From Verrucomicrobia bacterium LW23 (lineage in GTDB: Bacteria; Verrucomicrobiota; Verrucomicrobiia; Methylacidiphilales; UBA1321), in assembly GCA_003054695.1 (NCBI GenBank), contig QAZA01000016.1:62001-126000 (forward strand): a DNA stretch of 64,000 bases, read 5' to 3'. Position numbers and translations under genes: made by a program. The notes beneath the pieces were generated by a model, which saw nothing but the letters and a program-made list of their open reading frames with translations, had not been told where the DNA came from and did not search any database. This document shows positions 10,384-52,947 of the stretch, one piece after another. Each line of letters begins with the position of its first letter. The stretch's first letter is position 1.

Positions 10384-10447
10384 GGCAGCGCGGCGAGGGG
10401 CGGCATCCTGTATCAGAAATAAACATCATAAGGTTCAATCTGTTCTG

Positions 10448-10552
10448 CCCCTTTGTGTCTTCGTGTCTTTGTGGTTTAAAATCCCCCCTTCTCATCTACG
10501 TAAATGGGAACAGGGGATTGTTTAACCACAAAGGCACGAAGGCACAAAGGGG
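10448..10552. repeat. Long inverted repeat, CCCCTTTGTGTCTTCG family
   Basis: The left arm CCCCTTTGTGTCTTCGTGTC extends to TTTGTGGTTTAAA, and the right arm reads TTTAACCACAAAGGCACGAA to CACAAAGGGG. The arms are nearly perfect complements of about 33 bases around a short loop. It lies 65 bp after the lacZ-type stop codon, directly before a second palindrome. Such palindromic units are typical dispersed repeats of PVC and related genomes and could stop transcription in both directions. Confidence 0.8.
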
Positions 10553-10579
10553 CGGAGGGGAAGCTAAAGTAGCGTATTA

Positions 10580-10838: not shown

Positions 10839-12371
10839 TCAGGAGGCGATCTTCTTCTCGGCCTGGCCGGCGGCGGCGCAGATGCGTTTGGCTACCGCAG
10901 CGCCGCTTTCCAGGGCGCCTTCCATATAGCCGGGGAAGGCGTAGCTGACGTGCTCGCCGGCAAACTGGAGGCGGCCGGTGCCTTGCTCCAGGGCGTTGCC
11001 GACGCGGGTGATCTGGCCGGGCGCGGCAAAGCAGTAGCCGCCGCGGGTGTGGGGATCGGCCGGCCAGGCCATGTAGCGGGCGTGCGTCCAGTTGGAAGTA
11101 AAGCCGGGGTAGGCGCGTTCGATTTCCGCCTGGAGAAAGGCGTCGCGCGAGGCCGCGGGCTTGCGAAGGCTGGCCAGGGCGGCGCCGGCGCTGCAAAAGC
11201 CGACCATGCACGCGGGGCCGTTGCCGACGGGCTGGTTGTCGGTGCCTTCCCACGTCATGCTGACAGGTCCGTTGCTCATGCTGTCGGCCGCCAGGCCCTG
11301 CTTCTTCCAAAAGCGGCTGCGCACGGCGCTGAGGTATTTGAGGCTGATGCCCATCTGCAGCGCGCGCACGCGGGAGGGGAGGCCGGGGCGAAAATGCATG
11401 CGGCTCCACAACGTGGGCGGGATGGTAAGTACCGCAAAATCAGCCTCATACACAAGGGCGCCCGCCGTTTTAATGCGGATGAGCCCGGCCGCGTCGTCCG
11501 TCTCCACATGGGTAACGCAGGTGCCCAGGTGGATGCGCTGGCGCCCTACGGCGGCGGCCAGGCGTGTGGCCAGCTGGTCGTTGCCGCCCCGGCAGCGGTG
11601 GGTTTCGGAGTCCGTCCAGTAGCGCTCCACGCCGCCGCCGCGCACCTGGGCCAGCATGCCCAGGTAGCTCATGCGGCTGAGTTTGACACCGTTGTCGGCT
11701 ACCAGATTGGTCTCCAGCACACCGCGGGTATGGCTGTCCAGGCCCAGGGAGTGGAGCCAGTCGCCCATGTTGCGGCGGTCCAGCGCGGCGGCATTGGGCG
11801 TCAGCCACGGGGCGCGGATGTTGACGGTGCGGGCGTCGGCATTGAGCTTGCTGAAGCAGTGCTGCATGGCCTCCCACAACCGCGTTTCCTCGGCGGAGCC
11901 CAGTCGTTTGCCGTCGATCACAATGGGCGCGTCGGCGTCCGGGTCCTCCGTCATCGGCAGCATGCTCAGGCCAAAGCGGCGGGCGTAGGCCCACCAGGCC
12001 ACGTGGTTAATGCCGATAAGCTCCGCGCCGCCCTCCACAACGCGGCCGGGGATAAAGTTGCGGAGGCTGAGCACCCGCCCGCCCACGCGATCGCGGGCCT
12101 CCAACACGGTAACGTCGAAGCCGGCGTGCTGCAGTTCGTACGCCGCGGTTAGTCCGGAGAAGCCGGCGCCGATGATCACAACGCGTCCCTTTGCCCGCCG
12201 GCTGGCGGGCCGGGCCGCCGCGGGGGTCGATTCGCTCAGCAGCACCGCCCCCGCCGCCGCAGCCAGCCTGGCCAGAAAGGCGCGCCGCGAGATGCCGGAG
12301 CGCGGGACGTCCGCCGGGGGGAGTTCGACACCCTGACGCTGGGCAAGCTTGCGGTAGAGAGCGCTGAGCAT
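10839..12371 (-). CDS. Tat-exported FAD-dependent amine oxidase
   Basis: A 510-residue flavoprotein of the monoamine oxidase/tryptophan 2-monooxygenase type. Near the N-terminus SRRAFLARLAAAAGAVLL is a twin-arginine signal (SRRxFL plus hydrophobic stretch), so the folded enzyme is probably exported to the periplasm. The FAD Rossmann motif VVIIGAGFSGLTAAYEL with LEARDRVGGR follows. The C-terminal FAD segment reads LQFAGEHVSYAFPGYMEGAL, typical of flavin amine oxidases. The amine substrate is not predictable. The ATG at 12371 was chosen because it places the Tat signal at the N-terminus; the frame stays open to 12575 only because it runs into a palindromic repeat. Its immediate neighbours give no pathway clue. 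Confidence 0.85.
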   Translation of the reverse strand: MLSALYRKLAQRQGVELPPADVPRSGISRRAFLARLAAAAGAVLLSESTPAAARPASRRAKGRVVIIGAGFSGLTAAYELQHAGFDVTVLEARDRVGGRVLSLRNFIPGRVVEGGAELIGINHVAWWAYARRFGLSMLPMTEDPDADAPIVIDGKRLGSAEETRLWEAMQHCFSKLNADARTVNIRAPWLTPNAAALDRRNMGDWLHSLGLDSHTRGVLETNLVADNGVKLSRMSYLGMLAQVRGGGVERYWTDSETHRCRGGNDQLATRLAAAVGRQRIHLGTCVTHVETDDAAGLIRIKTAGALVYEADFAVLTIPPTLWSRMHFRPGLPSRVRALQMGISLKYLSAVRSRFWKKQGLAADSMSNGPVSMTWEGTDNQPVGNGPACMVGFCSAGAALASLRKPAASRDAFLQAEIERAYPGFTSNWTHARYMAWPADPHTRGGYCFAAPGQITRVGNALEQGTGRLQFAGEHVSYAFPGYMEGALESGAAVAKRICAAAGQAEKKIAS

Positions 12372-12471
12372 ATGGGCGCACGTTAGCGAGGTTGCGCGCG
12401 GGGTAAAATCCAAAACGCGCCGCCCGCGCCGTTTTTTTCTTTGCCAAGGTGCCTGGCACCGCCCGATCCAA

Positions 12472-12615
12472 CTAGTGCATCGGCAATGATCTATTTTAGG
12501 ATTAAGGCGGTTCAAGAAGAGATGTTCGCAAGGCTCTGACAACCTCGAAGAGGTTATCGGAAATTCCCCGTCCATGCACGTCTGATCCTAAAATAGATCT
12601 TTTCCGATGCACTAG
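12472..12615. repeat. MITE-like element with CTAGTGCATCGG termini (full copy)
   Basis: Both ends read CTAGTGCATCGG inwards, followed by A(A/T)GATCTATTTTAGGAT, giving terminal inverted repeats of about 31 bp with few mismatches. The interior holds AACCTCGAAGAGGTT at 12541-12555. A half copy of the same left end lies at 48836-48875. No coding capacity. Confidence 0.8.
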
Positions 12616-12617
12616 AC

Positions 12618-12769
12618 GCTGTCGACATTCGAATTATTCCCTTCTCAGTCTTGGCGATCTTTCCGTCCTTGGCGTTAAAAATCCCCTCGCGATACAATCC
12701 AACAGATTTTAAACGCCAAGGACGGAAAGATCGCCAACGGGAACCGCAGACCGCCGAAATGTCGACAGC
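12618..12769. repeat. Palindromic element with GCTGTCGACATT termini, copy 1
   Basis: The outer ends GCTGTCGACATT (12618-12629) and AATGTCGACAGC (12758-12769) are perfect inverted repeats. Inner arms CTTGGCGATCTTTCCGTCCT plus TGGCG and their complement CGCCAAGGACGGAAAGATCG form a second stem. The same outer ends and inner arm sequence recur at 36986-37234. It starts 2 bp after the previous element. Confidence 0.85.
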
Positions 12770-12839
12770 CCCCCTTCGCGTAACATAATCAGATTCTTTC
12801 CGGAGTCGTAGGGGAACGGATTATCTCTCGCGAAGGGGG
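12770..12839. repeat. Short palindrome, CCCCCTTCGCG arms
   Basis: CCCCCTTCGCG (12770-12780) and CGCGAAGGGGG (12829-12839) are perfect 11-bp inverted repeats around a 48-bp loop. It directly abuts the GCTGTCGACATT element, so three palindromes are joined end to end in this spacer. The remaining bases to 12893 show nothing else. Confidence 0.6.
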
Positions 12840-12893
12840 ACAAAGCCGCTAAGGGCAGAGGCTATGGAAATCTCTGCGCGATAGACTTTTGCA

Positions 12894-14777
12894 TTATGCT
12901 GTCGCCGTGGCCACCGCCACCGGCGGCGCGTTTTCGCTCTCCAGGATGGCTTCGGTGCGCTCGCTCTCAAACTGGCGGGTGTAGAGGGCGTGATAGTGGC
13001 TGCGCGCGGCCATCAGCTCGGCATGGGTGCCGCTCTCCAGAATGCGCCCTTTTTCGATGACCAGGATGCGGTCCGCGCGGCGGATGGTGGAGAGGCGGTG
13101 CGCGATGACGAAGCTGATGCGGCCGCGGAAGATGGCCTGCAGGCCGCGCTGGATAAGCTGCTCCGTCTCCGTATCGATGGACGACGTCGCCTCGTCCATG
13201 ATAAAGATGCGCGGGTTGGCCAGCAGCGCGCGGGCAAAGGAGACGAGCTGCTTTTGCCCGGTGGAGAGCGCGTTGCCGCCTTCGCCCACTTCCGTCTCGT
13301 AGCCGTGCTCCAGCGCGCGGATGAATTCATCCGCGTTGACGCTGCGCGCGGCCGCCTCAATCTCCTCGTCGGTCGCGTCCAGCCGGCCATAGCGTATGTT
13401 ATCCCGTATCGTTCCGCTAAACAGGTGCGGCCCCTGAAGCACAATGCCCAGGTTGGACTGGTACCACAGCAACCCGCGCTCGCGTAAGTCCCTGCCGTTT
13501 ACGAGGATGCGTCCGGCCGTGGGCTCATAAAAGCGGGCCGCCAGGTTAACGATGGTGCTTTTGCCGCCGCCGCTGGCGCCGACGAGCGCGATTGTCTGGC
13601 CGGCTTGTACATGCAGGTTAAAGTCGCGCAGTACCGGCTTGTCCGCTGTATACGCAAAGTCCACGTGCTCAAAGGTTAAGCTCTGGATGTCAGGCTCATG
13701 CCCGTCCGGCGCCAGTTCGGGCGATGGGGCCGCGGTGTACGCCGCCAGCCGCTCGCGCACGTCGTCGCTGTCGCAGATGCCCGGCTGCGTGGCCAGCAGG
13801 CTCAGCACCCGCTCGCCCGCCGCCTGCGCGCCCTGCATCTGGATGAGCGTCTGCGCCATCTGATGCACGGGGTGGAAAAACTGGCCCGCGTAGAAGATGA
13901 ACGCCACGAGGGTGCCCAGCGTCAGCGTTTGCGCAAGCACGCTGCCGCCGCCGTACCACAGTGCCAGGCCGGCCGCCACGCTGCCCAGCGTCAGCACAAG
14001 GGGGATGTACACGGCGCTTTGCATTGCGTTAAGTAGCGATACATCATACATTTGCGATGACAGGCGTTGAAACTCGCGCAGGTTTGCCTCCTCGCGCACC
14101 AGCGATTTAGTGGTGCGCAGGCCCTGCAGAGCCTCGGCAAAGCTGGCGGTAATCATCGAGTTAAACCGCCGCGTCTCGCGCGAGGAAACGAGGAGCTTGC
14201 GCTGGAAGATCAGGCTGATCCAGATGAGCGCCGGCACGACGGAGAGCACCAGCAGGCCCAGCGTGGGGTGCAACACCACCAGCACAATCGCGATGGTCGA
14301 GACCAGGCACGAGGACCAGATCAGATCGAGCGAGCCCCACGCGATAATGCGGCCGAGCTTGTCGCAGTCGGAGGTGAGCCGCGAGATGAGCCAGCCGGTG
14401 GGCCGGTGGTCAAAGTAGGCAAACTCCAGCTCCTGAATGCGCCGGAAGCACTCCTCGCGGATGTCGTGGCTCATGTTGTGCGAGAGGGTGCCCGCCGCGT
14501 TGATGAAGATCCAGACGCTGAGCGAAAAGGTCGTGATCATCGCAAAGTACGCGCCCGCGATGAGCCGGAAATCAGTATTCTTGCCGGTCGCCACCACCTC
14601 GTCCATCGCCCACCGCGTCAGCAACGCAAAGGAGGCATCGCAAAACGCGATAACCACGGCCGCGACAGCCAGCGTGATAAGATGGCGCCGGTAGGGCAGC
14701 GCGTGGCGGAACACGCGCGTCCAGAGGCTGAAATCCAGCTTGTCGCTTACCGCGTCGACCTGGGATGTATCGTGCAT
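12894..14777 (-). CDS. ABC exporter half, MdlB-like (canonical ATPase site subunit)
   Basis: A 627-residue half-transporter: an N-terminal type I exporter membrane domain with six predicted helices (about 25-330) and a C-terminal ATPase. Walker A is GASGGGKST (about 400), the Q-loop LGIVLQ, the signature is LSTGQ rather than LSGGQ, Walker B is IFIMDEATSSID with the catalytic Glu present, and the switch His is in IAHRLST. A deviant signature together with an intact Walker B is what MdlB-type partners of heterodimeric exporters show. It lies 54 bp downstream of its partner gene and is probably cotranscribed. The substrate (drug, lipid or peptide) is unknown. Confidence 0.85.
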   Translation of the reverse strand: MHDTSQVDAVSDKLDFSLWTRVFRHALPYRRHLITLAVAAVVIAFCDASFALLTRWAMDEVVATGKNTDFRLIAGAYFAMITTFSLSVWIFINAAGTLSHNMSHDIREECFRRIQELEFAYFDHRPTGWLISRLTSDCDKLGRIIAWGSLDLIWSSCLVSTIAIVLVVLHPTLGLLVLSVVPALIWISLIFQRKLLVSSRETRRFNSMITASFAEALQGLRTTKSLVREEANLREFQRLSSQMYDVSLLNAMQSAVYIPLVLTLGSVAAGLALWYGGGSVLAQTLTLGTLVAFIFYAGQFFHPVHQMAQTLIQMQGAQAAGERVLSLLATQPGICDSDDVRERLAAYTAAPSPELAPDGHEPDIQSLTFEHVDFAYTADKPVLRDFNLHVQAGQTIALVGASGGGKSTIVNLAARFYEPTAGRILVNGRDLRERGLLWYQSNLGIVLQGPHLFSGTIRDNIRYGRLDATDEEIEAAARSVNADEFIRALEHGYETEVGEGGNALSTGQKQLVSFARALLANPRIFIMDEATSSIDTETEQLIQRGLQAIFRGRISFVIAHRLSTIRRADRILVIEKGRILESGTHAELMAARSHYHALYTRQFESERTEAILESENAPPVAVATATA

Positions 14778-36690: not shown

Positions 36691-36985
36691 GTTTCTCTCG
36701 TCGTCAAAACCGGGCGCAGCGGCAGGGGCGCAGCACCCAGATCCTTGAGTTTTTCGTTATCCTTTTGCACCGCAAACCCGAAAGTTTCCGATAAAAAAGG
36801 CAAAAAACCCGCGCCTGAATTTCAACCCGTTTGAAGTCACAAATTCAGGGTGGGACCTACGAAATGTTCGCCAAGAGTATCAAGATGGCTGCCAGTGTCA
36901 ATCGATTTTGCAAAGAAATTTGTGCGATTCTTTGCGAAACCCTCCCCCGCCCCTCGGGGAACGGCACTTTTTGCCTCTCTCCCTT
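36691..36985. other. Upstream region of the tRNA-Thr/tuf operon
   Basis: This stretch should hold the promoter of the long minus-strand translation/transcription operon. It is AT-richer at 36740-36860 with A- and T-tracts. I cannot name a clear -35/-10 pair. No gene is supported. Confidence 0.35.
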
Positions 36986-37234
36986 GAGGCTGTCGACATT
37001 TCCGCTGCATCCCCTTGGCGAAACTTTCCGTCCTTGGCGATACTATCTTCCTTGGAGTTACGGACCTTCAGATAACATCGCCAAGGGCGGAAAGTTTCGC
37101 CAAGGGGATGCTTCCACGATGTTCAACCTTCCTTACGTCCCCCTAGAGCGAGACATTCTCCTCCGTGCTGCAGTACGGCATATAAGCCTCTAAGCAGAGG
37201 AAAAAGGAGGAGGAGGCCAAATGTCGACAGCCTC
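36986..37234. repeat. Palindromic element with GCTGTCGACATT termini, copy 2
   Basis: GAGGCTGTCGACATTT (36986-37001) and AAATGTCGACAGCCTC (37219-37234) are perfect 16-bp terminal inverted repeats. Inside, GCATCCCCTTGGCGAAACTT and its complement flank a second stem that shares CTTTCCGTCCTTGGCG with copy 1 at 12618-12769. The right end touches the stop codon of the zinc-ribbon gene. The short frame that crosses it is not a gene. Confidence 0.85.
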
Positions 37235-37560
37235 TAGTAGATACGCCAGGCCCCGTACGAGAGCCACAGCACATAAAAAAAGATCGCAATCAGCACCACC
37301 GCCGTAATGACCCACATGGGGTGCAGCTGCTGCTTCTTCGGCACGCCGCCGTCTTTGCCATCGCCAAACTCGTTGTCCCGAAAGTCGTCGTAGTTGAAGG
37401 GTGCGTCGCCCGCTTCCGCATAGTCATCCGCCTCGTCCAGCCAGCCGGTATTTTCGTCGGAACCACAATAGGGACAAGCCTTTGCGCCGCGCGGCACGTC
37501 CTCGCCGCACTGCGGGCAATCGCCGGGCGGGCGGAAGCTGGAGCGCCGTTTTGTGCTCAT
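37234..37560 (-). CDS. Zinc-ribbon protein with C-terminal membrane anchor (108 aa)
   Basis: Residues 15-33 read [19 protein letters not shown], a two-CXXC zinc ribbon. An acidic middle (about 38-72) is followed by one membrane helix ([20 protein letters not shown]). The protein would display the ribbon in the cytoplasm from a tail anchor. Its ATG overlaps the stop of the upstream histidine kinase gene by 4 bp, indicating translational coupling and perhaps a shared function. The family is unnamed. Confidence 0.7.
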
Positions 37561-39419: not shown

Positions 39420-39472
39420 GCCGGGGAGGGCTGATGTGGCCCTGCGCTTCGCGATTGTTCTGCTACGATTTA

Positions 39473-39537
39473 CCCCAGCCCGGGTTGCATCCCTTTGCGT
39501 TTAAAGGGAGTGCGGCACGGGCTGGGGTTTCTTTTTT
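39473..39537 (+). terminator. Long terminator-like hairpin
   Basis: CCCCAGCCCGGGTTGCATCC pairs imperfectly with GTGCGGCACGGGCTGGGG and an inner CCCTTT/AAAGGG. It is followed by TTTCTTTTTT. A good end for the cyclophilin transcript. Confidence 0.7.
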
Positions 39538-39539
39538 CT

Positions 39540-39752
39540 GAAGCGCCAAAGGCGCTGGACATCTCGTAGCCCAGGGTAAGGTCTGCCGCAGCCCTGGGTT
39601 ACCGTGCTGGTAAACAGCGTCCTGAAGGGACGCCCCATGTCTCACGATGGCGGTTGGGGCGTCCCTTCAGGACGCGTTCCTTCCCCGTCCTGACCCAGGG
39701 CTGCGGCAGACCTTACCCTGGGCTACGAGATGTTTAGCGCCGTTGGCGCTTC
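39540..39752. repeat. Long nested palindrome, GAAGCGCCA...AGCCCAGGGTAAGG family
   Basis: Outer arms run from GAAGCGCCAAAGGCGCT through CATCTCGTAGCCCAGGGTAA and GGTCTGCCGCAGCCCTGGGT to their complements ending GGCGCTTC. Inner arms GCGTCCTGAAGGGACGCCCC and GGGGCGTCCCTTCAGGACGC make a second stem. The short frames in it translate the repeat in both directions and are not genes. This GCAGCCCTGGG type of repeat is widespread in Verrucomicrobiota. It sits 22 bp from the end of the next gene. Confidence 0.85.
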
Positions 39753-39774
39753 GGATGTTGAGATGCAGTGCCAC

Positions 39775-48770: not shown

Positions 48771-48810
48771 GGATGCATTCTCAAGTCGAGTGCAGGCACA
48801 CGCAAGCCTC

Positions 48811-48957
48811 AGGAGCGCCACAGGCGCGAAAGCCTCTAGTGCATCGGCAAGGATCTATTTTAGGATTAGACGTGCGTGGACCGGGAACGTCCGAGAACCT
48901 CGAGGAGGTTCTATAACCTAGCCCAGGGCTATAGGCTTTCGCGCCTGTGGCGCTTCT
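48811..48957. repeat. Nested repeats: GGCGCC-rich palindrome containing half a MITE
   Basis: AGGAGCGCCACAGGCGCGAA (48811 on) and its complement ending GCGCCTGTGGCGCTTCT (48957) are perfect 25-bp arms. Between them lies the left half (48836-48875, CTAGTGCATCGGCAAGGATC onwards) of the element found whole at 12472-12615, and the palindrome AGAACCTCGAGGAGGTTCT (48894-48912). The nesting shows repeat insertion into repeat. It follows trpD and may end its transcription. Confidence 0.75.
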
Positions 48958-49035
48958 GAGTAAGACCAGTTACCGGAATAAATCGCATCGGAACCGCTCG
49001 AGGCGCCAGGTGCTTCCTACACTGCTCTGCCCACG

Positions 49036-52766: not shown

Positions 52767-52807
52767 GTTCTCTCCGGTCCCCTCGCTTCTATTCCCATCT
52801 CGTCCCC

Positions 52808-52893
52808 TCCGTGTAATCCGTGAAATCCGTGGTTAATAACTCCCCCCTAAGAGAGAGGGGATGTTTAACCACGGATTTCACGGATTACACGGA
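52808..52893. repeat. Palindromic repeat, TCCGTGTAATCCGTG family
   Basis: The left arm TCCGTGTAATCCGTGAAATC plus CGTGGTTAA and the right arm TTAACCACGGATTTCACGGA plus TTACACGGA are near-perfect complements. The 86-bp unit separates the two heptose genes, although both could still share a transcript if it does not terminate. Confidence 0.8.
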
Positions 52894-52947
52894 AGGGAGA
52901 CGGAAGCGGATCATACTGAAGGGGTTATCCTGAAATTGTTACAGGCG

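Follow-up and report, generated by a model that had tools for sequence, protein, structure and literature searches.

The window analysed here, a stretch of 64,000 nucleotides from Verrucomicrobia bacterium LW23, holds three unrelated small palindromic repeats (E1, E2 and E3) that lie end to end in a single intergenic gap, at 12472-12855. This gap is bordered on one side by an ABC transporter gene (minus strand, stop at 12894) and on the other side by an amine oxidase gene, also on the minus strand, both identified by Pfam matches; the amine oxidase gene probably starts near 12371, though its frame remains open into E1. By inverted-repeat search, the E1 pair (12472-12615) was found to have arms of 31 nt (94%), the E2 pair (12618-12769) ends of 12 nt (100%) together with an inner arm pair of 33 nt (97%), and the E3 pair (12770-12839) arms of 21 nt (86%). 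Folding as single-stranded DNA, which covered E1 and E3, gave z values of -7.0 and -4.2 respectively, and both elements beat 200 of 200 shuffles. An Rfam scan of the window returned nothing at the stack, two tRNAs being its sole matches. The features are collected in Table 1.

Table 1. Features of the palindrome stack and related elements in the window
Feature	Position	Strand	Basis
E1, palindromic repeat, short form, CTAG at either end	12472..12615	+	inverted repeat and genome copies
TA common to the E1 right end and the E2 left end (flush joint)	12613..12614		
E2, ends of IS5-type insertion sequence and long hairpin core, right tip CTCTA absent	12615..12769	+	
E3, incomplete copy from the CCCCTTCGCG palindrome family, with outer right arm to ~12855 and without outer left arm	12770..12855		
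Second element with E2 ends, other hairpin interior	36983..37237		
E1 half copy between the arms of an E7 palindrome (arms 48808-48839 and 48929-48960)	48836..48910	-	

The original prediction, made from the sequence of the window, had placed three palindromes end to end beside the amine oxidase gene with gaps of 0-2 bp. The stack is real, and the presumed 2-bp gap between E1 and E2 is no gap; the two elements have TA(G) in common and E2 runs from G12615, the joint being flush because E2-type elements as a rule start after TA, here the TA of the last CTAG of E1. The third element had been taken to end at 12839, and the window keeps a further outer arm to the right of it.

The strong hairpins in E1 and E3, situated between two minus-strand genes, could also point to a functional device of these genes, i.e. 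a terminator, attenuator or promoter instead of mobile DNA, and two promoter-like sites on the plus strand, one in E2 and one across the E2/E3 joint (shuffles: mean 0.5, sd 0.8), might be read in the same way. We gave these sites little weight, and they are directed away from the minus-strand genes; moreover, the only terminator-like site (12414-12430; shuffles: mean 0.6) lies outside the elements and E1 and E2 have copies at many other places, which together make a functional device highly improbable.

Compared with its own genome (G000; 6.6 Mb in 56 contigs), E2, which measures 152 bp and carries no transposase gene, has six full-length matches of at least 93%, one of them being E2 itself. 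The E2 end TAGAGGCTGTCGACATT, allowing up to 2 mismatches, occurs 151 times genome-wide (100 places listed), ends of insertion sequences included, and its reversed control not at all. Thirty-nine paired E2-type elements in the sequences read are between 108 and 471 bp long, alike in their ends and different in their interiors; when these interiors were sorted by motif with loose mismatches, 18 of the 39 fitted two classes, which makes the class counts unusable. The sequence at 36986 that had been taken for a full copy of E2 belongs to an element with the same ends around another interior, and E2 as query had no match at this place at an E-value of 0.001. Throughout the loci and the window, E2-type copies combine constant ends with differing hairpin cores, as though the cores had been swapped.

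In its normal form an E2-type end reads TA-GAGGCTGTCGACATT. The TA precedes GAGG in 61 of the 78 exact ends in the sequences read, and a C or T stands before this TA in 56 of those 61, the contexts mostly being YTA(R). The terminal TA could be a target duplication, but would also suit a terminal repeat. Some copies carry the terminal dinucleotides CA and TG, which fits a terminal repeat equally well as a target duplication. The E2 of the window has one change in its left end (GACGCTG).

In this genome, an IS5-type insertion sequence (IS) is likewise delimited by the family end CTAGAGGCTGTCGACATT. At one locus (L093), a DDE_Tnp_1 gene (PF01609) is flanked by E2-type ends that form a perfect 19-nt inverted repeat, with CTAGAGGCTGTCGACATTC at both ends and an interior that is a run of N; this IS would be autonomous. 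A second transposase fragment with the same E2-type end (L088; 128 aa), on which the assignment of the E2 partner to the IS5 family rests, scores 124.2 bits with the NCBIfam IS5 model NF033580 (cut-off 110). Searching for a transposase with the same terminal repeats, as had been suggested alongside the original prediction, was thus successful for E2 and fruitless for E1. Because the E2 family and this IS have their end in common, E2 is, judged by sequence, best read as a MITE (non-autonomous mini-transposon) of an IS5-type element. At nine contig ends, the sequence breaks off 55-125 bases into an IS-type end (right ends of C13, C22, C23, C25, C39 and C45; left ends of C11, C15 and C18). Near-identical IS copies that collapse in assembly would produce such contig ends, hence the genome probably holds at least six copies of this IS. 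Three further E2 matches near contig ends (C8, C10 and the far end of C11) are of the MITE type.

Outside this genome, the E1-E2 stretch of the window had no match at an E-value of 0.001 in 39 other genomes, all of other genera, and the exact 17 bases of the E2 end are missing from 386 other genomes of the phylum. A search of genome contigs with the 128-aa IS fragment returned 15 loci, all in records named Caulobacterales, of which four match residues 6-128 at 41-43% identity and the rest match shorter pieces; two of these four (L159 and L160) have CTAG-ended inverted repeats. As a separate observation, other DDE_Tnp_1 loci of the present genome (L087, L091 and L092) have CTAG at the start of, or within, their inverted repeats, and a CTAG target may thus be common to several transposases.

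Elements of the IS427 group are given in one published table (Table 2 of PMC3281130) as 832-865 bp long; their inverted repeats are short and their direct repeats mostly measure 2 bp. In addition, for ISPsp10, a member of this group, a TA duplication is described (PMC4133298). E2 resembles the MITEs derived from this group of the IS5 family in having an IS5-type transposase as its partner, which may itself belong to the group; of the IS end, E2 keeps about 15-19 bp around an unrelated long hairpin core. A further parallel is RUP of Streptococcus pneumoniae, described as small, bounded by the ends of a resident IS, having a TA target and occurring in other IS elements, with IS630-Spn1 as its proposed mover (PMC2229807). 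RUP and E2 both have the ends of a resident IS and, in the case of E2 probably, a TA target, whereas RUP has an IS630 partner and is inserted in transposase genes, and here the partner is IS5-type and unrelated elements lie end to end. Thirteen IS630-type (DDE_3) matches are present in the genome and none has E1 or E2 motifs in the flanks examined; E4-type ends, belonging to another palindrome family, lie near two overlapping DDE_3 loci (L080 and L085). We found no paper on these elements in the literature searched by title or abstract opening. The kind of mobile DNA is well documented and ordinary, and the families are new.

E1 gave 60 DNA matches in its own genome, five of which cover at least 133 bases, itself included. 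Many of the matches consist of two halves around an extra stretch, and in the long form of about 350 bp the palindrome E5 lies inside. The end pattern of E1, with up to 3 mismatches, was matched 43 times genome-wide compared to 0 times for the reversed control, and E1 is a multi-copy element with terminal inverted repeats. The half copy that had been predicted at 48836 was also found, inside an E7 palindrome. At 23 E1 loci (24 entries, two of which share one locus), the base preceding the end TA is C in 21 of 23 left ends and the base following it is G in 18 of 18 right ends; the target of E1 is therefore nearly always CTAG. Duplication of TA and duplication of CTAG are indistinguishable for E1, the mobile part of which would be about 12475-12612, between two TA dinucleotides. 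A shared target preference, as foreseen in the original prediction, is supported by the two families, since E1 ends in (C)TA(G), with a strict preference for CTAG, and E2 mostly in YTA(R).

Genome-wide searches with a long and a short end pattern found no partner transposase for E1. Among the places of the 43 matches, the distance between paired E1 ends never exceeds about 410 bp, leaving no room for a transposase, and the shorter pattern has 21 matches, all at E1 places already found and without a partner among them. Likewise, the E1 motif is missing from all 25 transposase loci scanned. The ends of a partner IS would read CTAGTGNNNCNGCAA. By its sequence features, E1 is best explained as a second MITE-like family.

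REP sequences go with RAYT or IS200-type transposases, and the hairpins could have a comparable origin if they were moved by a hairpin-recognising IS200-type (Y1) transposase. The genome has five Y1_Tnp matches, and E5 and E7 palindromes bracket one of the genes. This gene (L096:1345-2050, in contig C25 around 144746-145090; over the cut-off of IS200 model NF033573) lies between nested E7/E5-type palindromes, as is seen for REP sequences and their transposase. The end motifs of E1 and E2 (up to 3 mismatches), however, are missing from all five Y1 loci (L094-L098), E2-type ends bound a DDE gene, and the ends of both elements are flanked by TA, which to our knowledge IS200/IS605 elements do not leave on both sides. 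We thus regard a REP-like origin of E1 and E2 as very unlikely.

For the third element, a plain DNA search with its 70 bp gave no other match in the own genome at an E-value of 0.001. The arm pattern CCCCTTCGCG...CGCGAAGGGG was found at 9 sites in the genome (control 0), two of which are one sequence at two places and one of which is a longer palindrome of other build. The inner arms of seven E3 copies pair best with their own partner, at 44 of 56 positions, a value that was reached by 5 of 5000 shuffles. The stretch at 12770-12839 represents the inner portion of a third family of palindromes. Further copies in the genome, by which the original prediction was to be judged, thus exist for all three elements, in the case of E3 through its arm pattern. 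An outer arm pair CCTTAGCGGCTTTGTC...GACAAAGCCGCTAAGG, or a close variant of it, is present in 5 of the 6 E3 sites read with flanks. The sixth site is that of the window, where the outer right arm is followed to ~12855, and the outer left arm is absent; at this joint E2, too, lacks its final CTCTA. This suggests that a small deletion in or beside a run of C removed the tip of E2 together with the outer left arm of E3.

Joints between elements are not restricted to the window. The end of another element adjoins 12 of the 42 distinct E1 ends that were read together with their flank (E2 in six cases, E4 in three, E5 in two, one of which (L016) rests on 11 bases, and E7 in one). The same holds for 15 of the 115 E2 ends in the sequences read, which are not a random draw from the 151 (E1 six, E4, E8 and E9 three each). 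The E8 palindromes (GACCAATTCGCA...), present in contig C45 at 128357-128520, 135373-135432, 163150-163313 and 303749-303808, are flanked by what look like 3-bp direct repeats (TAA or TTA); some IS5-type elements are known to target TNA.

To compare joints with and without an insert inside this one genome, the two flanks of each of 49 paired copies were put together and matched to the sequences read. Among the matches listed, the E4|E2 joint is uninterrupted at three loci, in C56, in C26 and in C45 at 327 kb. At 381 kb in C45, E1 lies exactly at the TA of E4|E2, and the joined flanks agree with the joint at 327 kb at 97% across 98 bases; of the TAs on either side of this E1, one reads CA. In C20, E9 lies at the TA of an E4|E2 joint, with TA on either side. 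The TA of this type of joint is therefore occupied by two different elements, E1 and E9, and E1 insertion, in the one joint of which both forms were compared, is precise at its target. This is in line with the earlier suggestion that the elements insert next to or into each other; it does not extend to the E2/E3 joint of the window, which looks like a deletion. Having uninterrupted and interrupted forms of one joint in one genome allows the insertion of E1, an element without a known transposase, to be read directly. As the order in C56 is E4-E2-E9, the reverse history, in which E2 entered an E4|E9 joint, is possible there.

Recurrent joints could also result from common descent, whole stacks having been transposed or copied as composite units, rather than from repeated insertion at a shared target. 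Some joints are indeed copied as units, because E4 and E2 repeatedly occur as a pair of constant order and orientation: the pair is continuous over 357 bases at 96% between C56 and C45 at 327 kb, where the outer flanks differ, and for C26 over a shorter run of 191 bases (91%). Moreover, C56 and C45 at 381 kb have the order E2'-E4-E2 in common, with E1 between E4 and E2 in the latter, and in C23 an E2-type element comes after E1 as in the window, in a single match of 75% over 271 of 298 bases. Spread of whole stacks would not by itself give E1 beside E2-type elements with different interiors and beside E4, E5 and E7, nor E1 and E9 each inside a joint that is uninterrupted elsewhere, and no second match spans the full E1-E2 stretch of the window. 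We therefore consider composite units a possible, though rather unlikely, explanation of the recurrent joints and favour insertion at a shared target.

This target is scarce. The window contains 19 CTAGs compared to 118 expected from dinucleotide shuffles and 49 from trinucleotides, i.e. a depletion of 6-fold and about 2.6-fold respectively, and 400 kb of contig C45 contains 108 compared to 317 expected from trinucleotides. Among the non-coding CTAGs of the window and C45 (464 kb) that are not due to E1, with coding defined by a simple longest-ORF rule, 15 of 54 lie at the ends of other element families. Another element adjoins E1 at 11 of the 23 loci, where 0.4 would be expected from random non-coding TA and 6.4 from random non-coding CTAG (binomial P 0.03), the latter expectation being uncertain, as it derives from the 15 of 54, and the count of 11 having been made after the data were seen. 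A scarce shared target explains most of the stacking, and an extra attraction of elements to joints is possible.

Taken together, we hold it to be probable that non-autonomous mobile palindromes have piled up at this locus through a target that is shared and scarce, with E2 as a MITE of an IS5-type element, E1 as a MITE-like element and E3 as a member of a third, possibly mobile palindrome family that would have lost its outer left arm in the deletion. Most likely, the stack came about because at least two of the palindromes are mini-transposons with one rare short sequence as their common landing site, and the ends of such elements supply this sequence. The IS5-type transposase of the same genome would move E2 in trans and insert it at YTAR, leaving TA on both sides, and E1 would insert with a strict preference for CTAG. 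Every insertion would remake (C)TA(G) at either end of the newcomer, and because CTAG is rare and is recreated in this way, element ends would form a large share of the available sites and the elements would settle end to end. The copies, the common ends, the IS partner of E2, the recurrent flush joints, the two forms of one joint and the depletion of CTAG were observed directly, whereas mobilisation in trans, the deletion and any order of insertion in the window are our interpretation. Such a mechanism would offer a simple rule for piled-up palindromic repeats of different families in bacterial intergenic gaps, namely that the target is shared, scarce and supplied by the elements. More speculatively, and in our opinion unlikely, joints between unrelated MITEs might act as self-renewing landing pads. 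Each insertion at the TA of a CTAG would give two new pads; a stack would lengthen from its joints and afterwards be duplicated whole, as seems to have happened to E4-E2, so that non-autonomous pieces of different transposon families would be assembled into composite mobile DNA more often than the supply of CTAG alone predicts.

Next to these families, the genome contains other large palindromes. Long palindromes of repeated short words (e.g. CACAAAGACACGAAG and CCGTGTAATCCGTG) were seen in the window at 10444-10556 and 52803-52898, and many of them in C45, 400 kb of which contain 68 inverted-repeat pairs with arms of at least 20, some overlapping. At 382086-382361 in C45, one arm of an E4 palindrome has grown to about 20 copies of an 8-base word. 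Finally, a large palindrome with 63-nt arms (94%) lies in the window at 39537-39755, with an inner hairpin at 39617-39675 and a neighbouring hairpin at 39472-39528.
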